This document shows positions 663 to 13,325 of a DNA stretch of 48,623 nucleotides, in pieces. The position numbers were made by a program, and so were the translations under genes. Origin of the DNA: Ahrensia sp. GTDB lineage: Bacteria > Pseudomonadota > Alphaproteobacteria > Rhizobiales > Rhizobiaceae. The notes beneath the pieces were generated by a model. It made no database searches, had not been told where the DNA came from, and worked only from the letters and a program-made list of their open reading frames with translations. How positions within the stretch are numbered: position 1 is the first letter of the stretch; each line of letters starts with the position of its first letter. The stretch is taken from contig PAKZ01000018.1 in assembly GCA_002706335.1 (NCBI GenBank), positions 1 to 48,623 of the forward strand. The letters run 5' to 3'.

Positions 663-2861
663 TCACCCAGCGATTTTCGAGAAATCCGCGAGCTTGCGCG
701 TGGTGGCGCGGAGCGAGGAGAGGAGGGCGAGGCGGTTGGCGCGGACGGCCGCGTCGTCGGCATTGACCATCACCGCGTCGAAGAAGGCGTCGACGGCCGG
801 GCGCAGTTCGGCCAGCACGCTGAAGGCACCGGTATAGTCTTCCTTGCCGATATGGGTATCGACATGGCCGGAGACGGTTTCGAGGACATTGGCCAGTTCG
901 CGCTCGGCGGGTTCGGTCAACAAGGACTTGTCGACCGCGCCGTCGAAAGCGCCTTCGCCGTCCTTCTTTTCCTCGGCCGCGAGGATGTTCAGCGCGCGCT
1001 TGGTGCCAGCGAGAAGGTTCGCGCCGGCCTCGGTGTCGAGCATCGCGCCGAGCGCCTCGACCTTGCGTACGACGATCAAGAGGTCGTCGTCTTCCGGCGA
1101 CAGGATCGCGTCGATCAAGTCGTGGCGCGCGCCGGAATCGCGGAGATAGACCTTCAGGCGGTCATGGAAGAAGGAGAGGAGGTCGACATTTCGATATAGC
1201 TCGTGGCTGTCGATACTCACGGGAGTGGCCGCTTCCACTATGTCCGGTGCCAATGAGCTTTCCCAAAATCGCATCTGGGTATGCAGCCTGAGTCTGATCC
1301 CGTTCTCCAGCAATATCCGGATCACGCCCAGCGCCGCCCTGCGCAGCGCATAGGGGTCTTTGGAGCCGGTCGGTTTCTCGTCGATGGCCCAGAAGCCGGT
1401 CAGCGTGTCGAGCTTGTCGGCGAGCGCGACGGCAATCGCGACCGGGCCGGTGGGCACGTCGTCGGTCGGGCCGAGCGGCTTGTAGTGATCCTCGACGGCT
1501 TTCGCGACATCCGGATCTTCGCCCTGCAGTTCGGCATAGATGCGGCCCATCGCGCCCTGCACCTCGGGGAACTCACCGACCACTTCGGTGGTGAGATCCG
1601 CCTTGGCGAGCAGCGCGGCGCGGCGGGCGTCTTTCGGGTCGGCACCGACCTTCGGGGCCAGTTCCTCGGCGAGCTTGGCGATGCGCGCGACGCGCTCGCC
1701 CTGTGTGCCGAGCTTGGCGTGGAAGGTGACGTCCAGCCGGTCGAGCTTGGCCATGCGCTGGTCGAGCGGCTTCTTCAAATCGAGGCCGAATTTTTCCGCC
1801 GAGGCTTTCAACTCGCCGAGATCGGGCAGGTCGGCCTGGTCGGTCTTCCAGAAATGCAGCGCGTCGGACAGGCGCGCGCGCACGACCTTGCCATTGCCGT
1901 GGACGATCTCCTTGCCGCCGTCGGTCGCCTCGATATTGGCGACGAGGATGAAGCGGTTGGTGAGCTGCTGCGTCTCGGGATCGCGGCAGACGAAACACTT
2001 CTGGTTCGTCTTGATGGTGAGGCGCACCACCTCGTCGGGGATTTCGAGGTAATCCGCCTCGAACTCGCCCATCAGCGGCACCGGCCATTCGACGAGGCCG
2101 GAGACTTCCTCCAGCAGGCCCTCGTCCTCGACCAGTTCGACGCCCTGCGCGAAGGCGAGGTTGCGGGCGTCGGTGGCGATCATGTCCTTGCGGCGCTCGG
2201 CATCGAGCACGACCCTGGCGTCCTCCAGCTTGGCGACATAGTCGTCGAAGCGGCGCACCGTGATCTCGCCCGGCGCGTGGAAGCGGTGGCCGCGCGTGAC
2301 GTTGCCGGCGACGATGCCGTCGACCTCGAAGGCAATGATGCGCGTTTCCTCGGTCTCGGGGCCGAAGGTGCAGAGGATCGACTGCAGCGGGCGTACCCAG
2401 CGCAGCGAGCCGGGCTCGCGCGACGCCTTGCCCCAGCGCATCGATTTCGGCCAGGGGAAGGAGCGGATGATGCCGGGCATAGCCTCTGCGATGATCTCCT
2501 CGGCGTCGCGGCCGGGCTTTTTGATCACGGCGACGTAGAAATCGCCCTTTTTCGGGTCGGACCGGACCTCGGCCTCATCGACGGAGGCAAGGCCTGCGCC
2601 GCGCAGGAAGCCCTCGACGGCCTTCTCGGGCGCGTCGGTGCGCGGGCCCTTGCGTTCCTCGGAAATGTCGGCGGAGCGGGCGGTGACGCCGCGAATGTCA
2701 AGCGCGAGGCGGCGCGGCGTCCAGTATTCGCGCGCACCCTCATAGGTCAGACCGCTCTCCACCAGCGCGTCGGTGACGGCTTTCCTGAGGTCGCCCGCCG
2801 CCTTGCGCTGCATGCGGGCGGGGATTTCTTCGCAGAAGAGTTCGAGTAGGAGGTCTGGCAT
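663..2861 (-). CDS. glyS: Glycyl-tRNA synthetase beta subunit
   Basis: This 732-residue protein is the beta subunit of the heterotetrameric bacterial glycyl-tRNA synthetase, which charges tRNA-Gly with GlyQ. The N-terminus [17 protein letters not shown] is the family signature. The middle holds the HD-like segment (around [14 protein letters not shown]) and the family stretch [17 protein letters not shown]. The C-terminus resembles the DALR anticodon-binding region. The start at 2861 is chosen because the family signature begins there; an upstream in-frame ATG (2909) would add 16 unconserved residues. It sits downstream of lemA and the DUF2207 gene on the same strand, and its partner glyQ is about 8.3 kb upstream. 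Confidence 0.97.
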
Positions 2862-2961
2862 GGTGGGTCCGGTAATGTCGGATGGGAGTGTCGCGGGGGC
2901 GAATAGCAAGACCGCGGGACGATGTCACGCGGTCTGGGCGAAAAGCGGCGTGGAGCGTGTC

Positions 2962-4893
2962 TTACCAGCCGCCGCCGCCGCCACCGCCACCACCGCCGCC
3001 GGAGAAGCCGCCGCCGCCCGAAAAGCCCGACGACGAGGATTTCGGCGTCGGCAGGGAGGCGGTGAAACTATCGGAAAGCGAGCCGGCGAGATTGCCCATC
3101 GTATCGCCGATGCGGTCGGTGTCGAAGAAGGGGCCGCCATGATACCAGCCCGGCCCGTGATAGGCCGCCGCCGTGGCGACGCCGGCCGCGACCGCCGTGG
3201 CGAGCCAGGCCTGGAAGGCCTTCGACCATGGCTTTTCGACGCCGAGCGCCACCGCATAGGGCAGCAGCGTCTCGTAATGCTGCGGCGACATCTGCGGCGC
3301 GCCTTCCATGTTCATCCGGTCCTTCTCGGCGACGGTGAGGTAGCGCTTCAGCCCCTCGATCTCGTCTGTGCGCTGCCGGCCGAGCTTCGTCGGCGCGCCC
3401 ATCAGGAAGAAGAACAGGACGTTGAGCATGACCAGCGTCGCCAGCGCGCCGACCAAGGCCGGCTTGTCGATCAGGTCGGCCAGTTGTCCGCCGGCGAAGA
3501 TGCCGGAATTGACGATGAAGATGCCGAAGAAGAAGGCCATGAAGACGATCTGCAGCTTGCCGCCGAAGCCGGAGCGCGCGCGCTTGCCGATGCTGACGGC
3601 CATGACCGTCATGACGATGCCGAAAAAGCCGATGGGGATGGCGAAGCCCAGCGTGTCCTGGGAGAGATTGCCGAACGCCAATGTCAGGATAATCGTCGCG
3701 ATCGAGACGATGACGCCGGGCACGATCCAGCCGATATTGGCCCGGTAGAACATCGCGCGATGCTCGCTCTCCATGGCGGAGCGGAATTTCGAGGCAAGCG
3801 ACTTGACCTTGGTGCCGTTGGATTTGTCGATGGTCAGCCGGCCGCCGAGACCGTCGATGGTGGCGATCAGCGCCTTTTCGCCGACAGGGAACCTGACGCC
3901 GCCGGTCGGCTTTTCGGTGCGCCGGATGGTGATGGTCTCGCCGATATCGTCGAGTTCCAGATAGCCCTTCACGGCGAGATTGAGGGCCGCAGCCGAGATG
4001 GCCGGGAAGCCGGCCTTCTTCAGCCCCTTGTTCCAGATGTAATGGGTCAGCGCCGGCGAGACGCCCTCGGGCAGGTCCCAGCGCGGCACGACGATGCCGG
4101 CGGGCGGATCGCGGCCGACGCGCAGCCAGGCCCAGAGGTAATAGAGGAAGACCAACGTCAGCCCGGTGACCGCGATGATGGTGCCGAGATTGTCGCGCAG
4201 ATACCAGCCGAGTTTCTGTTCGTCGGTCGGCTCGGCGATAACGCCCTTTTCAAGCCCGACCACGACCGACAGCCCTTCGCGCGCGCCGAGCGGCCGCGTT
4301 GTTTCGAAGGTGACGACGTTGCCGTTCGCCGAGGTGGTCGCCGTGGCATTCTGCGCCCGCGAGCCGTAGCCGCCCGTATAGGCGGCGGTGCCCTGCGCGG
4401 TCGCGCCGTCTGGCAGGTCGATCACCGCGATCGCCTTTTCGATCGGGAACATCCATTCCGTGCCGGTGGCGTTCCAGTAGACCTCGTCGTGATCGGCGAA
4501 GAAACGGACCTGACGGTCGGTGCGGTATCTCAGCTCGTAGGTGTGGATGCCCGGCGACAGGAACACGTCCTCCTTGCCCAGATAGACGCGCACCGCGGAG
4601 CTGATGCGCTCCACCCGGCTCGTCTCCGGCTGGCCGTCTCGCGTCGCCGAGAGCAATTCGAAACCGGCGCGCACCGTGCGGCCCTCGGGATCCTCGAACT
4701 GGACCGGGAAGTCGCGAAAGATGCCGCGCCTGATGTTGCGGCCCTCCGCATTGACCCGGATGGTTTCGGTGACGAGGAAATCGCCATTGGCCTGCACCTC
4801 GACGTCCGAGCGGTAGAGCAGGATCGTCTCGGCGGCGAGCGTGACCGTCGCCGAGGCGATGAGGAGCAGGAGGGCGAGGGCGCCGCGGAGCAT
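2962..4893 (-). CDS. DUF2207 membrane protein with poly-glycine tail
   Basis: This 643-residue protein has a signal peptide (about 1-20), an exported beta-rich DUF2207 domain (about 21-225), a membrane segment at about 237-257, a cytoplasmic stretch, and several further hydrophobic segments in the second half. The extreme C-terminus is almost pure glycine (FSGGGG repeats ending in an 11-Gly run and Trp). Such tails are typical of DUF2207 proteins. It lies 27 nt downstream of lemA, a pairing widespread in bacteria. The molecular function is unknown; a role in the cell envelope together with LemA is an inference from the pairing. Confidence 0.88.
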
Positions 4894-4920
4894 GGGATTT
4901 CTGCCGGTCAGAACTTCAGA

Positions 4921-5481
4921 TCAGAATTTCACTTCGGGCGTCTGGCGGTCGGCCTCGTTCTCCAGCTCGAAATAGTCCGCCTTGGCGAAGCCGAACTGGC
5001 TGGCGATCAGGTTCGACGGGAAGCTCTCGACCTTGACGTTCAGCTCGCGCGCCGAACCGTTGTAATAGCGCCGCGCCATCTGGATCTCGCTTTCCAGCGT
5101 TTCCAGCGTGCCCTGCAGGTCGCGGAAATTCTCGTTGGCCTTGAGGTCGGGATAGGCTTCCGCCACGGCCATCAGCCGGCCGAGCGCCTGGGAGAGCATG
5201 CCCTCCGCCGCGGCCCTGCCTGCGACATCGCCCGCCGGCACCGACTGCGCGCGGGTGCGCATCTCTGTGACCTTTTCCAGCGTCTCCTTCTCGTGGCCGG
5301 CATAGCCCTTCACAGTCTCGACGATGTTGGGAATCAGGTCGGCGCGGCGCTTCAGCTGCACGTCGATGCCGCTCCATGCCTCCTGCACCATCTGGCGCAC
5401 GCGCACCAGCGCATTGTAGGTGACGATGGCGTAACCGACGACGGCGACGACAATGATGATCAGGATCAGGCTCGAGCTCAT
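4921..5481 (-). CDS. lemA: LemA family protein
   Basis: The protein has 186 residues with a single N-terminal membrane segment (about 5-22, an Ile/Val-rich run) followed by a long helical cytoplasmic or periplasmic domain. The motif YNALVRVRQMVQEAWSGIDV and the following KRRADLIPNIVETVKGYA are diagnostic of LemA. It is the first gene of a likely two-gene unit with the DUF2207 gene. LemA proteins are of unclear function. The start at 5481 directly precedes the membrane segment and needs no extension. Confidence 0.93.
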   Translation of the reverse strand: MSSSLILIIIVVAVVGYAIVTYNALVRVRQMVQEAWSGIDVQLKRRADLIPNIVETVKGYAGHEKETLEKVTEMRTRAQSVPAGDVAGRAAAEGMLSQALGRLMAVAEAYPDLKANENFRDLQGTLETLESEIQMARRYYNGSARELNVKVESFPSNLIASQFGFAKADYFELENEADRQTPEVKF

Positions 5482-5558
5482 GCGGGATCTCCGGATTCGC
5501 GAATGACCCGGACGTTAGCCCAGTTGCGGAACCGTTTGAAGCTCCTTGGCGAAACCGG

Positions 5559-5933
5559 TCAGGCGGGCGTGATCCAGCCGGAGGCGGAACCCGAGGCCGA
5601 CTTGACGATGGCGACGCGCCCGACATTGGGCACATCGAACGGCGCGCGCATTATCTTGCCGCCCGCGGCCTTCGCCATTTCGACGCGGGCATCGACATCG
5701 TCGACAGCGAAATAGGTGAACCAGTGCTCCGGCACGAGCCGATATTTCCAGCCGGTCAGGGTGAAGATGCCGGCAACCGTCTCGCCGTTGGAGGAACACA
5801 TGTAATAGGGCGCATCACCGCCCATCGGCATGGCGTCGAATGTCCAGCCAAGTGTTTCGCCGTAGAACTTCATCGCCTTGTCGGCGTTATGAGTGTTCAA
5901 TTCGGTCCAGTGGATGGTGCCATGTGGGATCAT
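5559..5933 (-). CDS. VOC (glyoxalase/bleomycin-resistance fold) protein
   Basis: This 124-residue protein has a single vicinal oxygen chelate domain. The N-terminus GTIHWTELNTHNADKAMKFY and the stretch FTYFAVDDVDARVEMAKAAGGKI give the two beta-alpha-beta units, and the ending resembles the last strand (GRVAIVKSASGS). The substrate cannot be read from the sequence; relatives include glyoxalase-like and antibiotic-binding proteins. A ribosome binding site GGGAGAAACGC precedes the ATG. The gene is separate from lemA (77-nt gap) and may have its own promoter in the AT-richer 5934-6016 stretch. Confidence 0.85.
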   Translation of the reverse strand: MIPHGTIHWTELNTHNADKAMKFYGETLGWTFDAMPMGGDAPYYMCSSNGETVAGIFTLTGWKYRLVPEHWFTYFAVDDVDARVEMAKAAGGKIMRAPFDVPNVGRVAIVKSASGSASGWITPA

Positions 5934-6016
5934 GCGTTTCTCCCGCGACAGAAAAACCGCTTTGTAACAGGTCGGTCAGTCCAGCGCGACCGACAACTTG
6001 AAAAGCAAAGGAATAA

Positions 6017-6367
6017 TCAGGTTTCTATTGTTGATCTATTGTGTCGCCTTTTCACGCCGTCGATATCGTCCAGCATGACGCGCAGCGCCCGGATCGCCTT
6101 TTCCTCGTCCGGCGTGAGCGGCTGTTTCGGGTCGAAATGCTCCAGCAGCACGGCGAGCGCGTCGCCGATCCGGCCGAGCTGGCGGCCATAGCTGCCGACC
6201 TCGTCGAGAATGTCGCGCTCGACCTCCGGCGCGCTGGACCGTCCGAGATTGATGTTGATCAGGCCGACCTGGCTGCCGAAGGCGCTGAACCACGAGGTCC
6301 AGGGCGCGATCATCTGCGACACGTCGCCCGAGAAGGGCCATTTGACGGTGGGTGTGAAGGCCGGCAT
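6017..6367 (-). CDS. Hypothetical protein, 116 residues
   Basis: I do not recognise a function. The start at 6367 (MPAFTPTVKWPF) is chosen because AGGAGACAGCGC directly precedes it; a longer frame to 6442 would add 25 Arg-rich residues. The N-terminal third is aromatic and hydrophobic (WPFSGD, APWTSWFSAFGS). The C-terminal part is helical and charged, with heptad-like spacing (VERDILDEVGSYGRQLGRIGD and DEEKAIRALRVMLDDID), suggesting an oligomerising helix bundle. No signal peptide or clear membrane span is seen. It follows the small RHH-like gene by 75 nt and may be co-transcribed with it. Confidence 0.75.
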   Translation of the reverse strand: MPAFTPTVKWPFSGDVSQMIAPWTSWFSAFGSQVGLININLGRSSAPEVERDILDEVGSYGRQLGRIGDALAVLLEHFDPKQPLTPDEEKAIRALRVMLDDIDGVKRRHNRSTIET

Positions 6368-6442
6368 GCGCTGTCTCCTGTCGTCATCCTCCCGGAGGGC
6401 AGGATAGCAGGGAAGGGTGCGGCGCCGAAGCCGATAGAGCAA

Positions 6443-6667
6443 TCAGCCCTCTTCGCCGTCGGCCTTTCGTTCCAGGACGCCGAAATCCTTCGATTTTTCA
6501 TGGGTTTCCGCCCATGCCACGCCTTCCGAGGTGAGGCCAAGCCGCAGCAATTCGCGTACGGCTGACGCTCGGCTAGGCATCCGCCGCTGGAAGCGCCAGT
6601 CGTCGATCGCCTCGAGCTCCTGCTCGGACAACATGATTTGCAGTCGTTCGTTTCTGTCGCGATTCAT
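6443..6667 (-). CDS. Small ribbon-helix-helix-like protein, 74 residues
   Basis: The N-terminal half (MNRDRNERLQIMLSEQELEAID, then RRMPSRASAVRELLRLGL) has the pattern of a ribbon-helix-helix DNA-binding domain: a short strand, a helix, then a turn rich in Ser/Arg before a second helix. RHH proteins dimerise and bind DNA, often as transcription regulators or antitoxins. The start at 6667 is the second in-frame ATG and gives the canonical strand; 6694 would add 9 residues. It is divergent from the plus-strand accessory cluster, with a 17-bp palindrome between them, so it could regulate the cluster. That link is inference. Confidence 0.65.
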   Translation of the reverse strand: MNRDRNERLQIMLSEQELEAIDDWRFQRRMPSRASAVRELLRLGLTSEGVAWAETHEKSKDFGVLERKADGEEG

Positions 6668-6749
6668 GTGTATGGACGGCGGGAATATACTCAACGAATT
6701 TGTTAGTTAATAGCTCAAATGCGTCAACTTGCAAATGTTTTGCCTGTTG

Positions 6750-6766
6750 TATGAGCGACGCTCATA
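6750..6766. promoter_or_regulatory. 17-bp perfect palindrome, candidate operator
   Basis: TATGAGCGACGCTCATA is a perfect palindrome centred on A6758. It lies in the AT-rich divergent region between the RHH-like gene and the 6897-10271 cluster. Its length and single-base centre suit a dimeric repressor such as a TetR-type protein. It ends one base before the ATG at 6768, which leaves no room for a ribosome binding site if that were the start. This argues that the first cluster gene starts further downstream. Confidence 0.55.
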
Positions 6767-6896
6767 GATGAAGCGGCGGCTTTACAGGGAGGTGCAGGGC
6801 TGCGATCATGGCGCAAACAACCGACACCACGATTCAAACCTGGCCCGCGACGCAGTTCAATTTGTCGTGGAGGTCTTTGTATTTGGAGAAGAAATC

Positions 6897-7304
6897 TTGG
6901 ATGTTCTCGTCTTTGCCGAAGAGCCGGATTTCGCCGCCGATATCATTCTGCGGCTGGAGGAAGCCGGCGATTTCAACGTCTACCCGATCAATGGCGGCAG
7001 CCTTGCCGGCGAAATGCAGATTCCGAGCGGCGACGTGGCCGTGGTCGCCGCGCCCACCGATGTCGAGATGACGGAGGAGATTCTGGGAAGGCTGGAACAG
7101 ATCGGCGTCCCGACCGTTCGCCTGAGCGAGACGGGCAAGCCGGACGCGAACCATCTGGCCGCGCTCTCCGCCCACGGCGACGTTGCGGCCCTGACCCAGC
7201 TCCTGGGAATATTGGACAGCGACAGGAAAACCGGACGATACGAGACAGGCGTGGGGCTTCGCCCGGCGCCCGCCGAACGGGACGAAGCCGTCGACAAACC
7301 GTGA
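6897..7304 (+). CDS. Receiver-like protein without phosphoacceptor Asp
   Basis: I place the start at TTG 6897, 8 nt after GGAG (6885-6888), giving 135 residues beginning DVLVFAEEPDFAADIILRLEEAG. This reads like beta-1/alpha-1 of a response-regulator receiver domain. Beta-3 appears at GDVAVVAAPTDVE (46-57), where the phosphoacceptor Asp is replaced by Ala, and beta-4 at GVPTVRLSE (70-78). A pseudo-receiver is therefore likely, but this is pattern matching only. The frame stays open upstream to an ATG at 6768 (178 residues), yet that extension is His/Arg-rich and abuts a palindrome. Another frame has an ATG at 6808 after AGGGAGG. It is the first gene of the accessory cluster. Confidence 0.6.
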   Translation: MDVLVFAEEPDFAADIILRLEEAGDFNVYPINGGSLAGEMQIPSGDVAVVAAPTDVEMTEEILGRLEQIGVPTVRLSETGKPDANHLAALSAHGDVAALTQLLGILDSDRKTGRYETGVGLRPAPAERDEAVDKP

Positions 7305-7315
7305 CCGGGCCCCAA

Positions 7316-7342
7316 GGCGCGTGTCACAGCCACCCACGCGCC
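7316..7342. repeat. Hairpin between cluster genes 1 and 2
   Basis: GGCGCGTG (7316-7323) and CACGCGCC (7335-7342) form a perfect 8-bp stem with an 11-nt loop, just after the stop of the receiver-like gene. No T-run follows, so it is more likely an RNA-stability or processing hairpin than an intrinsic terminator. Confidence 0.4.
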
Positions 7343-7394
7343 GGGCCAGTGCCGAAAGGTTACGGACCACGGCCGAAAGCCGATCGCAAATACG

Positions 7395-8000
7395 ATGTTT
7401 CAAGTTCTCGCGGAAAACCGGCAGACCATCAATACTGTCATCAACGTGCTGATGCTCTTGGTATGGACCTTCTACTTCCAGATGCTGTTCAATGCGCATC
7501 GCCGCGGGATGCGGCCGAAGATCCTGATCAACCGCAGCGCCGGGCAGAACCTCGATGCGCAATGCGTGATCTCCAACATGAGCGCCGGCACCGTTTATCT
7601 GGAGGCTGTCGTCATGTGCCTGACAGTCGGCGACGAGACGCATGAATGCTCGCTGACCGATCTCAGCAATCTCGTTAAGGCGCCTGAAGGCGACAAGCGC
7701 TCGCACTGGTTCCAGGGTCCGCTGACATCCGGCGAGTTTCTCTCGCTCGGCGGATTCGACAAGCTGTTGGAAAACTGTACCCGGCAGCATGGTCTCGACA
7801 TGTCGAATGTCTCGGAATTCGACCTGCTCGTCGTGGCAACCTACGGCCCGAGCGAGAACCCCGCCGGGGCGAAGCGCAAGTTCCAGCTGGAAACGACGGA
7901 AGCGGGAGAGAATTGGTGGCGCGCTTTCGCCAACCACCAGCTCCGGTCTGTCTGGTCGCGGCGCGGCCTGAAACGCTTCCTGCGGGACGCACCGCGCTGA
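7395..8000 (+). CDS. Membrane-anchored protein of unknown function, 201 residues
   Basis: I do not recognise a family. A single membrane segment lies at about 11-31 (INTVINVLMLLVWTFYFQML), followed by Arg-rich residues (HRRGMRPK) that place the rest in the cytoplasm by the positive-inside rule. The following 100 residues alternate hydrophobic and polar (ILINRS, CVISNMSAGTVYLEAVVMCL, FDLLVVATYG), suggesting a beta-sandwich. The C-terminus is basic (RSVWSRRGLKRFLRDAPR). It sits 90 nt after the receiver-like gene in the same direction. It could be a membrane docking component of the cluster, which is inference from order alone. Confidence 0.7.
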   Translation: MFQVLAENRQTINTVINVLMLLVWTFYFQMLFNAHRRGMRPKILINRSAGQNLDAQCVISNMSAGTVYLEAVVMCLTVGDETHECSLTDLSNLVKAPEGDKRSHWFQGPLTSGEFLSLGGFDKLLENCTRQHGLDMSNVSEFDLLVVATYGPSENPAGAKRKFQLETTEAGENWWRAFANHQLRSVWSRRGLKRFLRDAPR

Positions 8001-8049
8001 CCGCCGGTCCGCCGCCGCCCGTTTCCCCGCTCCGCATGAACGGAAGATA

Positions 8050-8071
8050 AACCGGCCCGCCACGGCCGGTT
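8050..8071. repeat. Hairpin after cluster gene 2
   Basis: AACCGGCC (8050-8057) and GGCCGGTT (8064-8071) form a perfect 8-bp stem with a 6-nt loop, 50 nt after the stop at 8000. There is no U-tail. It may weaken read-through or stabilise the upstream mRNA. Confidence 0.4.
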
Positions 8072-8126
8072 CAGGCGGAAGGGCGCATGCTGCCGGGACG
8101 ATCAACCCGAACCCGGCGACAGCGCC

Positions 8127-8291
8127 ATGCAAACCGTCAAGATCATCCAGATATGCCTGCTGGCAGCCTGCCTCTCGAACGAACTGCACGAGGATGATCT
8201 GGAGATGTCCGGGATGCGCCGCGCGATCGAACAATCCACCAAGGAACTCTACAAGGCGAAGCAAGCGGATCTCGGGGTGCGTATCGCATGA
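8127..8291 (+). CDS. Possible small protein, 54 residues
   Basis: The open frame runs MQTVKIIQICLLAACLSNEL to the stop TGA at 8289-8291. Third codon positions are mostly G or C, as in neighbouring genes. The first 16 residues are mildly hydrophobic with two Cys; the remainder is charged and helical (ELHEDDLEMSGMRRAIEQST). No strong ribosome binding site is seen. Its stop overlaps an ATG at 8288 that opens the longer version of the next frame, which would couple translation if that start were used. It lies in the same direction as the cluster and could be a real small component or chance. Confidence 0.4.
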   Translation: MQTVKIIQICLLAACLSNELHEDDLEMSGMRRAIEQSTKELYKAKQADLGVRIA

Positions 8292-8401
8292 AGTATTGTG
8301 AATACAGAAAATCGCTTATCGCAGAATCTATTGTTGTATTTTCGTCTTCGAAGAAAAAACAAGCTGTGTTAGACTGGCGGCATGAATACAATGAGGTCGC
8401 C

Positions 8402-9595
8402 ATGCTGCTTTTCGGCTCCTTGCGCGCTTCCTGCCTTGCTCTTGTCGGAGTTCTTCTCCTGATCCCCGGAGAGCCGGCCCGGGCGGGGAAAGTTGGGCCG
8501 CCTCGTCTTGTCGAGGCGCTTCGCGCCCAGCCGGGTGAAATCTACGATTACGTGGTTTCCTTTGAGGAAGACGAAACGCCCGATTCGGGCCTCGCCGGAC
8601 AGCGCGAGACCCTTCCGTTGAAGCTGCTCAACGGCTTTGCCATGCGGATGCCGGTGGCGGATGCCTTCGAACTCGCCGATCAGCCAGGGATCCGCTGGGT
8701 ATGGTATCTCCATCCCGACGAGGCGACGGGAACGATCAGGGTCCTGCAGGGGCTGGACTACACCGTCGCGACCCTGCCCTTGCCGAACCTGGCCAATCTC
8801 TCGCTTGGTCCTCCCACGAAGTTCTATCGAACGGAGCCGGAGCTCGACGCGCCGGTGCAACGCGCTCTCGGCGCAGCGGCCGAACGCGGGCTCATAGCGA
8901 TTGTGGCTATCGGAAACACGGGCGAGCAGGCGCCGGGCTACGTCAATCCCTGGAGCGCGCCGCCGTGGGTCATTTCGGTCGGGGCATGGGATCATACGAC
9001 AAACGCGGTATGGACCGGCTCGTCCACCGCGGAGCCCGATCGCGTGGACGCGTGGCCGGACGTGGTCGCTCCGGGTGTAGATGTCATCGGTCCCTGGACG
9101 TCCACCCGCGAAAAATCCGTGGAACGGCGGGCCTACGATGAGGCAAACGACCGCTTTCGGACGCAAATTCCCAAGGAGGAGCAGGACAAGTACACGCTGA
9201 TGACGGGAACCAGCCAGGCCGCGGCTGTCGTCAGCGGCGCGGCGGCGCAAATCCTGCGATATCTCAACGGATTTATCGTTGAGCACAAAACAAGCTTCGG
9301 CGACGCTCTGTTCGAGCTCGAGGCGGGCCCCGACCGCATGTCCGATTATGACCGGCAGGCCCCGAGGCTGACAGGCACCGCCACCCCGAACGACAGTGGC
9401 GGAATGACATATTCCTACACGCTGGACGAACCCTGGAGGCTGGTCAAACAGATCCTGATCGACACCGCGATCCCGGTTCCAGGGGCCAGGTCCTGGCAGG
9501 CCGGCGCCGGGTTGGTCGACCGGGACTACATAAACGCCCAGTTCGGCGCCTATGGATCCGAGCCGCCGCAACTTCTTCCGGTCAAAGTGCAATGA
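8402..9595 (+). CDS. Exported subtilisin-like (S8) protein lacking catalytic Asp/His
   Basis: The start at 8402 follows GAGG and gives a signal peptide (about 1-28, ending PARAG); an in-frame ATG at 8288 would add 38 unlike residues. Residues 46-105 resemble an inhibitor I9 prodomain (IYDYVVSFEED, LKLLNGFAMRMP, PGIRWVWYLHPD). The S8 fold then begins abruptly at ANLSLGPP (131-138). It continues through the oxyanion Asn segment AIVAIGNTG (N172), WVISVGAWD, and the nucleophile motif MTGTSQAAAVVSGAAA (Ser271). The usual N-terminal part of the domain, with the catalytic Asp (DTG) and His (HGTHVAG) motifs, is missing. It is thus probably a pseudo-protease or depends on a partner. It is 10 nt before the Trypco2-like gene. 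Confidence 0.8.
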   Translation: MLLFGSLRASCLALVGVLLLIPGEPARAGKVGPPRLVEALRAQPGEIYDYVVSFEEDETPDSGLAGQRETLPLKLLNGFAMRMPVADAFELADQPGIRWVWYLHPDEATGTIRVLQGLDYTVATLPLPNLANLSLGPPTKFYRTEPELDAPVQRALGAAAERGLIAIVAIGNTGEQAPGYVNPWSAPPWVISVGAWDHTTNAVWTGSSTAEPDRVDAWPDVVAPGVDVIGPWTSTREKSVERRAYDEANDRFRTQIPKEEQDKYTLMTGTSQAAAVVSGAAAQILRYLNGFIVEHKTSFGDALFELEAGPDRMSDYDRQAPRLTGTATPNDSGGMTYSYTLDEPWRLVKQILIDTAIPVPGARSWQAGAGLVDRDYINAQFGAYGSEPPQLLPVKVQ

Positions 9596-9605
9596 GGCCA
9601 TCACA

Positions 9606-10271
9606 ATGAACCAGCTTCTCGCTTCCTTCCTCATCGGCGCGATCGCTTTCTGGGGCGCGTTTCAGCTTTATCCGAAGATATTCCAGGAGGCGGCGGACGA
9701 GATAGCGGTTCTCTCGCTCGAGGACACGATCCGCCACATCGAGCTCGAGTTGGCCGAGATCGCGGCGACGCCGGGTGATACGGCCGGACTGATCCTGGAC
9801 ACCGTGAAGGTGGAGTTGTCGGCGCAGCGGCAGGACGAGGAGAACACCACGGCGGAACTTGCCGTACCGGTCTTCGATGAGGCCAGCATCGGCGTCGACA
9901 CCACGCGCAAACTCACCCGGGGGTCGAAGATCACGGTCGCGTTCAAGGCTCCGGCGGGCGATGAACTGCTCGCCGACGGCGCGCATGGAGAGCTCGATCT
10001 CTCCGCGCTGGTTCTGGCGGCCCGTCAAGCGCTTCTGGCCACGGCGAAGGACGATCCCGTCCTCTTGCCGAAATCCGTCGACATAGAGGTTCATTTCGTC
10101 CTGGCCAGGAGCGTGAAGGGGGAGGGCAAGATCAAGGCCTACGTCATCGCGGTGGGCGGCTCGTCTTCCCAACTGGATACCGGCGGAAACAAGATCGTGC
10201 TCGGCTACGTCAATCCTTTGTTCGCGGAGGAAAAAAAGGACAGCGCGGGCAAAGCCGTGCCTCCGATCTGA
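9606..10271 (+). CDS. Membrane-anchored protein with two Trypco2-like domains
   Basis: The start at 9606 is preceded by TGAGG and overlaps nothing; the frame opens at 9552 inside the previous gene. The 221-residue product has an N-terminal membrane segment (about 4-21). Two similar units follow: residues 37-115 (LSLEDTIRHIELELAEI, then LDTVKVELSAQ) and 131-206 (LDLSALVLAARQALLAT, then SVDIEVHFVLA and IKAYVIAVGG). Helix-then-strands with a terminal hydrophobic strand is the layout of the trypsin-co-occurring domain 2 (Trypco2), described near proteases in bacterial conflict and signalling loci. The assignment is from memory of the pattern. Adjacency to the S8-like gene agrees with it. Confidence 0.7.
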   Translation: MNQLLASFLIGAIAFWGAFQLYPKIFQEAADEIAVLSLEDTIRHIELELAEIAATPGDTAGLILDTVKVELSAQRQDEENTTAELAVPVFDEASIGVDTTRKLTRGSKITVAFKAPAGDELLADGAHGELDLSALVLAARQALLATAKDDPVLLPKSVDIEVHFVLARSVKGEGKIKAYVIAVGGSSSQLDTGGNKIVLGYVNPLFAEEKKDSAGKAVPPI

Positions 10272-10392
10272 GGCCCGTCGGTATCGCGCCCGCGACAGGA
10301 GCGGCGGTGCCCGCCAATTCCGTCATGGAAATTTCACACGCAGGCGCGCCTCGGGGGATTAAGGCTTCGTGGTCCGACAGGAGACCCGCCCA

Positions 10393-11166
10393 ATGCCTCC
10401 GCCCAAGCCGTTCGATCTCGACAAGCTTGCCCGATCCGCCAATGCCGCGCCGAACCGTTTCGTCGGCGTCAGGCTGGACAGGAACCGTGTGTTTCTGCCG
10501 GAGGCGGGCAACACCGTGGTGCGCCATGTCGTGCCCGGATCCGAAACCGAGGCGGCGCTGATCGAGTTGCGAAAGCGCCTGCGCGATCTGCCCTGGGGCC
10601 ACCGTTTCGCCTTTACCGATGTGGAAAGCCTCCACATGACGGTCTTCAATGGCGTAATCGAGACCTGCCGCGAACCGGGCTTCTGGCCGCAAGAGCTGGC
10701 CCTCGCCCTGCCGATCGAAGCGGTGACGGATTATCTTGCCGCGCGGCTCGACGGATTCTCCGGGCCGGGACCGTTCGACATGCGCATCGCCGAGGTGACG
10801 CCCTATGGCCTGACGCTGACCGGCGCGACCGAGGCGGACGAGAAGACGGCGCGGGCATGGCGCGACGCGCTCACCGGCCCCTTCACCTACCGCGCGCCGA
10901 AACATGACGCCTACACGTTCCATGTCACGCTCGCCTATCTGATCGACTGGCTTCCGGACGACATGGTCGACTGCTACCGACAGGCGCTCGCCGAACTGAC
11001 CGGGGAATTTCGCCAGCGCATCCCGGTCGTCGAACTCGGCCCGCCGGCCTTTTGCACCTTCGAGGACATGAACGGCTTTCCGCCGGTGATGACGCTGGAA
11101 GGGACGGGACTGGAGCCGGTCTTGCGCACGGCCGACGAGGGACTTGAAGCGGATCAGCCCGCGTAG
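10393..11166 (+). CDS. DUF1868 / 2H-phosphoesterase-like protein
   Basis: This 257-residue protein has two H-x-T motifs, [10 protein letters not shown] near residue 78 and FHVTLAYLI near 176, the hallmark of the 2H phosphoesterase (2'-5' RNA ligase-like) superfamily. Length and spacing fit DUF1868. Members act on 2',3'-cyclic or 2'-5' phosphodiester bonds, but the substrate of DUF1868 is not known to me. The start at 10393 follows AGGAGA; 10369 would add 8 residues. The 3' end overlaps the convergent glyQ by 13 bases. It may be part of the accessory insert or independent. Confidence 0.82.
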
Positions 11167-12107
11167 TTCACGCCGCCGGCTTCCGTCATCAGGAACGCTT
11201 CTCCGCATTGGCGCGACAGGTTGCGGACCTTGAGGATGTAGCTCTGCCGCTCGGTGACCGAGATGACGCCGCGCGCGTCCAGCAGGTTGAAGACGTGGCT
11301 TGCCTTGATGCACTGGTCGTAGGCCGGCAGCACGCATTTGTGCAGGCGCTCGTTGGAATTATCGCCGGGCGCGCCTGCCGCCAGAAGGGCCGCGCATTCG
11401 GCCTCGGCGTCCTCGAAATGCTTCAGAAGCATCGCCGTGTTGGCATATTCGAAATTGTGCCGCGAATATTCCTGCTCGGCCTGCAGGAAGACGTCGCCAT
11501 AGGAGATGCGGTCTTCGCCGTCGAGGCCGTTGAAGTTGAGGTCGTAGACGTTGTCGACGCCCTGCACATACATGGCGATGCGTTCCAGGCCGTAGGTCAG
11601 CTCGCCCGAGACAGGCGCGCATTCGATGCCGCAGACCTGCTGGAAATAGGTGAACTGCGAGACCTCCATGCCGTCGCACCAGCATTCCCAGCCGAGGCCC
11701 CAGGCGCCGAGCGTCGGGCTTTCCCAGTCATCCTCGACGAAGCGGATATCGTGCAGAAGCGGATCGATGCCGATCGCCTTCAACGAGCCCAGATAGAGCT
11801 CCTGCAGGTCCGGCGGAGATGGCTTCAGGATCACCTGATACTGGTAATAATGCTGCAGGCGGTTGGGGTTTTCGCCATAGCGGCCGTCCTTCGGCCGGCG
11901 CGACGGTTGCACATAGGCGGCCTTCCAGGGCTTCGGTCCGAGCGAGCGCAGCGTGGTGGCCGGATGGAACGTGCCCGCGCCGACTTCCATGTCGTAGGGC
12001 TGCAGGATCACGCAGCCATGCGCCGCCCAATAGCGTTGCAGCGTCAGGATGAGCCCCTGGAAGGAACGGGTCGGATCGAGCGGATCGATGGTGGCGTGCG
12101 CGGTCAT
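11154..12107 (-). CDS. glyQ: Glycyl-tRNA synthetase alpha subunit
   Basis: The 317-residue product is the catalytic alpha subunit of the alpha2beta2 glycyl-tRNA synthetase. Class II core motifs are evident: [17 protein letters not shown], then [51 protein letters not shown] and GLERIAMY. The start at 12107 is where family similarity begins; a further in-frame ATG at 12215 is not supported. It lies downstream of sppA and a small membrane protein on the same strand. Its partner glyS follows only after the accessory insert, so the two subunits are probably expressed from separate promoters here. Confidence 0.97.
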
Positions 12108-12308
12108 GATTTCGGCCTTGTGGCTGGTCGGCGCTTCCGTGGCATGACGCTCCCAAAGGGTCAAGTGGCGCTCCCTGTGACCGTATGCACATCGCCGTCG
12201 CGTCAGCCGGGGCATGCTGGGTTCAACTTACCGGTGGCCGTGGTGATCGCACAATCGAGACCTCCGCCGGCAGTTCGGGGCTGAAACTCGAACCAATGGA
12301 GAAATGAC

Positions 12309-12719
12309 ATGAACACGACACTGACACATCGCAATATCTTCGCTGCACTCGTCCTCGTCCCCGCGATGGCGCTGGGCGGTCTCGTCGCCGAGCCGATTGC
12401 CGGCAAGTCCGGCGCCGAGGCGCAACAGCAGAGTTTTCAGCGGAGCCCGGACTACTCGCGTCCGGACAGGAAGGACAGCAGCGACGAACCGCGTCGCGGC
12501 CGTACTCCGCCGCCATGCATACCGGGTACCGCCTCGGTGGCTGCGATCGACTGCACCCCGTGGACGCCGCCGCGCTTCACCGCTTCCTCCAAGGAGGATT
12601 GCGAGTGCCACATCGTCTACAAGACGGTGAATGGCCAGCGCGTCGCCGAAAAGGATTGCTATGTCCTGCTGCCGACCAACAAGGTTTACTACTGTCAGAA
12701 CCCGCGCGCGGTGAACTGA
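12309..12719 (+). CDS. Exported Cys-containing hypothetical protein
   Basis: The 136-residue protein has a signal peptide-like N-terminus (HRNIFAALVLVPAMALGGLVA, likely cleaved near 39 after AEA) and a Pro/Arg/Ser-rich linker. The C-terminal half carries six Cys (PPCIPG, DCTPW, DCECHIVY, DCYVLL, YYCQN), consistent with disulfide bonds in the periplasm. I do not recognise a family. A ribosome binding site (GGAGAAATGAC) precedes the ATG, and a clear intrinsic terminator follows at 12744-12769. It is divergent from glyQ across a 201-nt region. Confidence 0.75.
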   Translation: MNTTLTHRNIFAALVLVPAMALGGLVAEPIAGKSGAEAQQQSFQRSPDYSRPDRKDSSDEPRRGRTPPPCIPGTASVAAIDCTPWTPPRFTASSKEDCECHIVYKTVNGQRVAEKDCYVLLPTNKVYYCQNPRAVN

Positions 12720-12743
12720 CCGCAAACGCATCGCGAATGCAAA

Positions 12744-12769
12744 GGGCGGCCTCCGGGCCGCCCATTTTC
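12744..12769 (+). terminator. Intrinsic terminator after the 12309 gene
   Basis: GGGCGGCC (12744-12751) pairs perfectly with GGCCGCCC (12756-12763) across a 4-nt loop and is followed by ATTTTCC. It stands 25 nt after the stop codon of the exported protein gene and just before the possible promoter of the next gene. Confidence 0.8.
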
Positions 12770-12781
12770 CGTTGATCGCAC

Positions 12782-12807
12782 GGAACCATTGCGCCCGGCC
12801 GGCTGTT
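12782..12807 (+). promoter_or_regulatory. Candidate EcfG/RpoE2-type general stress promoter
   Basis: GGAAC (12782-12786) is followed after 17 nt by TGTT (12804-12807), close to the alphaproteobacterial general-stress consensus GGAAC-N16/17-CGTT (in Sinorhizobium given as GGAAC-N18/19-TT). It lies about 27 nt upstream of the ATG of a general-stress-protein-26-type gene, with an intrinsic terminator directly upstream, so a promoter is needed at exactly this place. There is one mismatch in the -10 element. Confidence 0.55.
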
Positions 12808-12833
12808 ACCCGGAGACCAACAAGGAGTAAGAG

Positions 12834-13325
12834 ATGGCCGACCTGAAGGAAACGAAGACAGATCCGAAGAAACAGCTCTGGGACGAGATCGACGGCGTTC
12901 GCGCGGTGATGCTCGGCGTTCCGGCATCCGGCCAGCACATGCAGCCGATGGCCCCGATGCCCTCACGCGAAGAGAACCGGATCTGGTTCTTCACCAAGAA
13001 GGACAGCGATCTCGTCAAGGCCGTGGCCGCCGGCAAGGCGCATATGTGCCTTGTTTCGGACGACCAGGATTTTCACGCCTGCGTTTCCGGCCAGCTTGCC
13101 GAAAACAAGTCGCAACAGCATATCGACCGGTTCTGGTCCTCCGTGGTCGGTGCATGGTTCGACGGCAAGGACGATCCGAACCTGACCATGCTGGAACTGA
13201 TACCCGATCACGCCTCTGTCTGGGCGTCGTCCGACAGCTCGCTGCGCTTCGGCTGGGAGATCGCCAAGGCGAACCTGTCCGACAGCGAGCCTGATCTCGG
13301 TTTCCACACGCAATTCGCGATGTAG
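12834..13325 (+). CDS. Pyridoxamine 5'-phosphate oxidase-like general stress protein
   Basis: The 163-residue protein fits the flavin-binding split-barrel family typified by general stress protein 26. The opening KQLWDEIDGVRAVMLGVP, the following MQPMAPMPSREENRIWFFTKKDSDLV and the core KAHMCLVSDDQDFHACVSGQL match its order. It is not a true PdxH (that gene is at 35781). Likely ligands are FMN, FAD or F420-like flavins; the reaction is unknown. AAGGAG lies at proper distance before the ATG. It is monocistronic, bounded by terminators on both sides, and probably stress-induced if the upstream promoter call is right. Confidence 0.88.
   Translation: MADLKETKTDPKKQLWDEIDGVRAVMLGVPASGQHMQPMAPMPSREENRIWFFTKKDSDLVKAVAAGKAHMCLVSDDQDFHACVSGQLAENKSQQHIDRFWSSVVGAWFDGKDDPNLTMLELIPDHASVWASSDSSLRFGWEIAKANLSDSEPDLGFHTQFAM

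Follow-up and report, generated by a model that had tools for sequence, protein, structure and literature searches.

The stretch of DNA analysed here, referred to as the window, is the 48,623-nucleotide contig PAKZ01000018.1 of Ahrensia sp. (assembly GCA_002706335.1), and the subject of this study is a pair of plus-strand genes, D and E, located in its first quarter. Gene D (8402–9595, 397 residues) encodes an apparently exported homologue of the S8 subtilases without the block that bears the catalytic Asp and His, that is, a pseudo-subtilase. Gene E (9606–10271) starts 10 bp after it and encodes an N-terminal hydrophobic span followed by Trypco2 sequence, probably in two repeats. A first-pass annotation made from the DNA letters had described a cluster of five genes, A to E, between 6897 and 10271. 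The D-E pair recurs in a second bacterial class, and the cluster shrinks to this two-gene module, which is a variant of the Trypco2-protease pairing and not a new category. The pair is real and unusual, but it has fewer genes than the cluster first described.

The mechanical open reading frame of D runs from 8288 to 9595. The true start is most likely 8402, because the codon score of 8288–8401 is below background, so that this part is not coding-like, and because the residues of the predicted signal cleavage (A|G) align with those of the relative of D found in a second locus, L036. The signal-peptide-like segment (8402–8485) was read by eye, and the likely cleavage residues are kept in that relative; export is what the N-terminus of D suggests.

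The S8 core of D (8792–9268, residues 169–327) was matched by Pfam Peptidase_S8 (PF00082) with an E-value of 3.2e-18, above the cut-off, over profile positions 114–258 of 288 only, and the L036 relative gave the same picture (positions 111–258). With a match that begins at profile position 114, the first-pass claim of an S8-like protein without an Asp/His region is borne out. Both D proteins were aligned with 18 other S8 rows, corresponding to 17 distinct proteins, to give 20 rows; loci L009, L038, L044 and L048 are omitted (L048 being the gene of L037), L002 is the protein of L026, and L003–L007 all come from one genus. The catalytic Asp motif (D-S/T-G) and the His motif (H-G-T or similar) occur in each of the 18 other rows and are not common to the D pair. 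All 20 rows keep GTS, the Ser motif, and GN, the Asn motif. In D, the codon of the retained nucleophile-type Ser, in GTSQAAAVV, is located at 9212–9214 and that of the oxyanion-type Asn, in AIGN, at 8915–8917; both D proteins keep GTSQAAAVV and GN. Normal catalysis is not expected of an S8 protein lacking Asp and His. Taking into account that the Ser and Asn motifs and the residues around them are kept, the alignment suggests that the cleft of D still matters, probably for binding.

The extent of the missing block was estimated from the spacing of landmarks. In D, the WVWYLHP strand, at the end of a prodomain-like part, lies 33 residues before the N-x-S-x-G strand, whereas in the seven S8 relatives measured (L008 yielded no row and L037 no N-x-S strand) the catalytic Asp alone lies 87–136 residues before it. 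Therefore, some 100 residues of the N-terminal S8 part are gone from D, and the preceding part is fused straight to the core. A split protease, with the missing S8 half encoded apart, was considered and rejected: neither motif searches nor tblastn with the N-terminal parts of five relatives found an Asp/His half at any other place in the window or L036.

The possible I9-like prodomain of D (8537–8716) is joined directly to the truncated core. Pfam gave no I9 match in D. Against PDB sequences this part had three weak matches, one of which (E 0.73) was an 81-residue chain named 'Protease' that, judging from its length and sequence, we took to be a subtilase prodomain, and a low-confidence model of D gave the order of strands and helices in the same region. 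Of the first-pass description of D, an I9-like prodomain is thus the part that is plausible but weak, having no Pfam I9 match and a PDB match at E 0.73 only. For the protein as a whole, the NCBIfam models obtained were a type VII secretion system (T7SS) mycosin (3.7e-11), CspBA (1.8e-8) and CspC (8.4e-8), all subthreshold; the CspC-type pseudoprotease model scored 31.1 bits, short of its cut-off of 675. The only PDB matches of D alone at E<=0.01 were CspC-type chains, 6mw4, which we take to be CspC, and 9sj9, and a two-row profile of the D proteins had its best PDB matches in 3afg (E 5.5e-5) and 9ues (E 6.7e-5).

The product of gene E matched Pfam Trypco2 (PF19631) with an E-value of 2.1e-10 and 41.1 bits against a cut-off of 24.2, and its L036 relative, with 46.0 bits, also lies above that cut-off. 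Two Trypco2 stretches were seen in E when the E-value limit was relaxed to 10. Searched separately, the second repeat (9996–10196) passes the cut-off (2e-6). With the N-terminal half of E by itself Pfam found no Trypco2, and with that of the L036 relative it gave a weak match (E 0.0031, below the cut-off). In a low-confidence model of E, a helix precedes a single strand in the N-terminal half and three strands in the C-terminal half, which loosely fits a repeat and proves nothing. E probably carries two Trypco2 repeats, behind its hydrophobic span; of the tandem domains first proposed, the second is secure and the first was not matched on its own.

Trypco2 is an adaptor-type domain that is known from its position beside trypsins. 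It was found above the cut-off in 4 of the 385 genomes of the class sample, the window's own included, and in all three of the other genomes (loci L023, L024 and L025) the adjoining gene matched Trypsin_2, by a margin of just 0.1 bit over the threshold in L024. The trypsin triad motifs were all detected by pattern in two of these loci; in L024, Asp and Ser were detected by pattern and His by eye. Since Trypco2 adjoins a trypsin in three other genomes, the protease-like protein without a triad takes the trypsin's place in the window. The first-pass suggestion of a disabled subtilisin in that position holds up, the arrangement being present again in the second class. In L025 (915–2771, genome G939), a tandem Trypco2 protein lies directly beside the trypsin-like protease and both have export-type N-termini by eye, the hydrophobic segment of the trypsin being short. 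No other pair comes closer to D-E, and by analogy it favours a periplasmic location of E. It was also noted by eye that vWA-like and TIR/STAND-like proteins are encoded near the Trypco2-trypsin pair of L023 (9006–14825) and a protein with a formylglycine-type domain near that of L024 (7792–18952).

The scan of the species-genome collection with D, which may omit records close to the window's own genome, returned one relative among 109 pattern matches. Its locus, L036, belongs to an uncultured Granulosicoccaceae metagenome-assembled genome (Gammaproteobacteria). The two D proteins are 58% identical in the scan and 55% over the whole; their alignment is gap-free between about residues 107 and 435, and a relative of E (45% identity) starts 13 bp after the D relative. 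The first-pass annotation had proposed to look for its gene order in another genome; for D-E this order was found, and in another bacterial class, which is good evidence, from a single pair of loci, that D-E is a working two-gene unit. The L036 contig starts 600 bp before D, where another reading frame is present (2–331, FKBP-like by eye) and not A–C; no relative of A, B or C was found in the 9.9 kb of L036, though A or B may lie beyond the contig end. An exported protein with a phage-tail-collar domain (Pfam, 2745–3362) and an RHS-repeat-like protein (by eye, 8771–9853) are encoded near the pair in L036.

The distribution of the pair is narrow. D was found in 1 of 6 genomes of its own genus, and so was B. 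Within the order, D was found at E<=0.001 in 10 of 297 genomes, namely the window's own and nine with short S8 matches, whereas E was found in its own genome only, out of 297 in the order and 398 in the phylum. The D profile was also run, without a positive control, on three other classes of the phylum, and was found in 0 of 78, 0 of 48 and 9 of 369 genomes, all nine again being short S8 matches. None of these samples yielded a further orthologue of the protein searched. For 15 of these 18 genomes with short S8 matches the S8 proteins were aligned, and these have Asp and His.

The pair is located in a block of about 4.4 kb (5935–10374) that blastn against loci L021 and L022 showed to be absent from the same place in the sister genome G300. 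It is bounded on the left by a minus-strand glyoxalase/VOC gene (5559–5933, Pfam PF00903, assigned also by synteny) and on the right by a 2H-phosphodiesterase gene (10369–11166), which, like A–E, lies on the plus strand. These two flanking genes are 181 bp apart in G300, against about 4.4 kb in the window, and the matching interval in the sister G301 measures 820 bp, with no glyoxalase match in the stretch taken. From these intervals, the block was gained here or lost in the sisters; the comparison leaves out G297 and G298, which gave no match to the 2H gene, and locus L020 of G299 ends 0.87 kb past that gene, too short to tell, with no match there to the proteins of the block. Besides A–E, the block holds two minus-strand genes (6017–6694), one whose product has a weak, sub-threshold match to a ribbon-helix-helix family (Pfam RHH_1, E 0.025) and the other coding for at most 141 aa and matching no Pfam family, and neither has relatives in the comparison loci collected. 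At the other end of the window, 48480–48593 matches the end of contig C22 of G299 (92% over 115 bp), perhaps a repeat where both assemblies broke.

The remaining members of the original cluster precede D. Codon scores favour A from 6897, B, D from 8402 and E as coding. Gene A (6897–7304, plus strand, 135 aa, TTG start) has no recognisable domain: it had no match in Pfam (E<=10), PHROGs, PADLOC or plasmids, nothing better than E 0.61 among PDB sequences, and short subthreshold lasso-peptide matches in NCBIfam, the best of 0.0007 over 15 residues. The receiver domain ascribed to it at first reading is not supported by these Pfam and PDB results. Gene B (7395–8000, plus strand, 201 aa) was described as a single-span protein facing the cytoplasm, and since positively charged residues follow its only hydrophobic span, a cytoplasmic C-terminus is plausible. 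Its relatives were found in 31 plasmid records, mostly of Alphaproteobacteria; they form a widespread, unnamed, stand-alone family of membrane proteins of about 200 aa, and in four of the eight contexts examined they lie near stress- or regulatory-type genes (catalase, ferritin-like, PRC-barrel, sigma-70 family). ORF C (open reading frame, 8127–8291, plus strand, 54 aa) is doubtful as a gene, with a codon score of 0.16 against 0.13 for the opposite strand. Of the five-gene cluster, the D-E pair therefore stands by its recurrence, while A, B and C as parts of a conserved unit are not supported.

Considering these results together, we give about an even chance to the reading that D-E is an envelope pseudoprotease-adaptor pair, acting as a sensor, scaffold or decoy. 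According to this proposal, D would be exported and would retain the C-terminal two thirds of the S8 fold, comprising the helix that precedes the N-x-S-x-G strand, both retained motifs (Ser and Asn) and the C-terminal part. The N-terminal span of E would anchor it in the inner membrane and leave the Trypco2 repeats outside, where E would bind D as an adaptor and hold it at the membrane. In its vestigial cleft D would most likely bind a peptide or a protein, being unable to cut in the manner normal for S8 enzymes, the uncleavable prodomain-like part would keep D in one defined state, and the D-E complex could then serve as sensor, scaffold or decoy.

Several points weigh against this proposal. 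Conservation rests on one pairwise comparison, as there are only two D-E loci, and the contact between D and E is itself inferred. The span of E has no Lys or Arg before it and one after it, so that its orientation can be read either way, and Trypco2 repeats on the cytoplasmic side would be out of reach of D. The AlphaFold models, built from two-row alignments, have a mean predicted local distance difference test score (pLDDT) of 34.8 for D and 39.2 for E and are of no use, and the prodomain assignment of D is weak. Finally, the aligner sets a DSG of D (residues 99–101) into the Asp column, and the L036 relative has HGY near the His column, where D has NGF. This DSG sits in the prodomain-like part and is replaced by SSE at the same place in the relative. 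Since neither DSG nor HGY is common to both D proteins, we regard them as probably due to chance and count the catalytic Asp and His as absent.

Other explanations of the locus were weighed against the same data. D could be a protease inhibitor or decoy that captures active proteases, or the substrates of these, through its prodomain-like part and vestigial cleft, with E as the membrane anchor of the complex. Subtilase propeptides can inhibit, according to two studies (PMC10580911, PMC6993865), and an uncleavable prodomain would fit; however, the core is better conserved than the N-terminal part (45% identity, against 55% for the whole), which would be needless in a pure inhibitor, and the explanation depends on the same weak prodomain assignment, so we consider it rather unlikely. 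Some hydrolytic or self-cleaving activity could persist in D if the retained Ser worked with another base. To this idea the Ser and Asn motifs of both proteins lend themselves, as do three histidines, H142, H236 and H333 (numbered on the open reading frame from 8288), all invariant in the pair, but the entire Asp/His block is missing and H236 and H333 align away from the S8 active site, as judged from the subtilisin fold; the probability that we assign to it is low. Least credible of all is a decaying, functionless protease gene. Although catalytic residues were lost and the distribution is narrow, more than 300 residues align gap-free at 58% identity across two classes and both frames are open, which argues for selection on D and largely refutes decay.

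The two broader explanations concern the genes around the pair. A single signalling chain across the envelope formed by A–E would agree with their common strand and common lineage-specific block, and A or B might lie further upstream in L036, whose contig begins so close to D. Nevertheless, a different gene precedes D there, no relative of A, B or C is found in its 9.9 kb, none of the 8 contexts of the B family examined (of the 31 records) has A, C, D or E within 5–6 kb, and the gaps of 90 bp (A-B), 126 bp (B-C) and about 400 bp (B-D) contrast with 10 bp between D and E. We therefore judge the chain very improbable, and the five-part, three-compartment system of the first-pass annotation is not supported, given the other gene before D in L036 and the separate occurrence of B.

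The alternative that D-E serves in defence against phages or in another kind of conflict, as the trypsin/Trypco systems of VMAP loci do, draws on the definition of Trypco2 in such systems (PMC7159879, PMC10907252), on the conflict-type genes seen by eye within a few kb of two of the three other Trypco2-trypsin loci, and on the location of D-E in a lineage-specific block. D also matched the PADLOC subtilase model (8.7e-9) and a PHROG 'protease' family (8.1e-17), as an S8 domain would; its PADLOC matches were to S8-type models only, those to IetS (0.005) and to type IV restriction (0.011) being weak. On the other side, A, B, C and E had no PADLOC match, the pair appears exported, and no MoxR, vWA or STAND gene was recognised among the reading frames read around either locus. 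The VMAP parts (MoxR ATPase, vWA, VMAP) were likewise not recognised in 2773–13325 of the window or in 1–9854 of L036, read by eye and, for part of the reading frames, with Pfam. Three pattern-based scans of viral contigs, which need exact short peptides and which distant relatives can escape, gave no relative of D or E, and tblastn against phage records gave for D only an unrelated reductase at E 0.1 and for E nothing. A viral or phage origin of the pair was rejected on these two results. Plasmids gave no D-E match; D and its relative had partial S8 matches there, none covering >=80% of the query. The defence role that had been offered as another reading thus keeps little support, namely the S8-type PADLOC matches of D, with nothing in A, B, C and E, and we hold it to be unlikely.

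Going back to the envelope pseudoprotease-adaptor pair, its most specific form would be a sensor of a new type in the envelope: a pseudo-subtilase whose core stays permanently joined to the prodomain, and a membrane-bound Trypco2 adaptor that senses which state it is in. We put this forward tentatively, as a possibility that we would not expect to prevail. If it were true, a cytoplasmic type of Trypco2 system would have been transferred to the envelope, where a pseudoprotease from another family replaces the trypsin effector. More broadly, a pair such as D-E would point to a general feature that Trypco2 recognises, or to a partnership able to serve binding instead of cutting. As the pair is small and apparently exported, the binding of Trypco2 to a protease-like partner would be testable with two proteins.

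By comparison with known systems, the accessible portions of the literature on Trypco2 and on inactive subtilases contained no S8-Trypco2 pair. Trypco1 and Trypco2 were named for genes neighbouring trypsin-like peptidases in VMAP conflict systems (PMC7159879) and were later termed adapter domains (PMC10907252). D-E resembles the Trypsin-Trypco2 pairs described there (PMC7159879) in having the Trypco2 gene directly beside a protease-family gene, and differs from them in that its protease-like member is of the S8 family instead of the trypsin type and has neither the catalytic Asp nor the His. It is also unlike the VMAP ternary systems, as no VMAP, MoxR or vWA component was recognised nearby. 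With the subtilisins 3afg and 9ues, of the Tk-SP type, D shares a match that runs from the helix before N-x-S-x-G onwards; these are active enzymes, and the stretch aligned to D starts past their Asp/His part. The Csp proteins carry a jelly roll of about 130 residues, whereas D, with 397 residues, has no insert of that size, and Trypco2 is not known in Csp systems. CspC and CspA of Clostridioides difficile belong, like D, to the S8 family without a working triad; the pseudoprotease CspC retains its prodomain uncleaved and has a part in sensing germinants (PMC6636752, PMC12880746), and so sets a precedent for the role proposed for D. CspC keeps its Asp, having lost His and Ser by substitution, whereas in D the Asp/His block is deleted and Ser and Asn are kept; after the Csp proteins, D would add a further bacterial example of subtilases made into non-enzymatic signalling parts.

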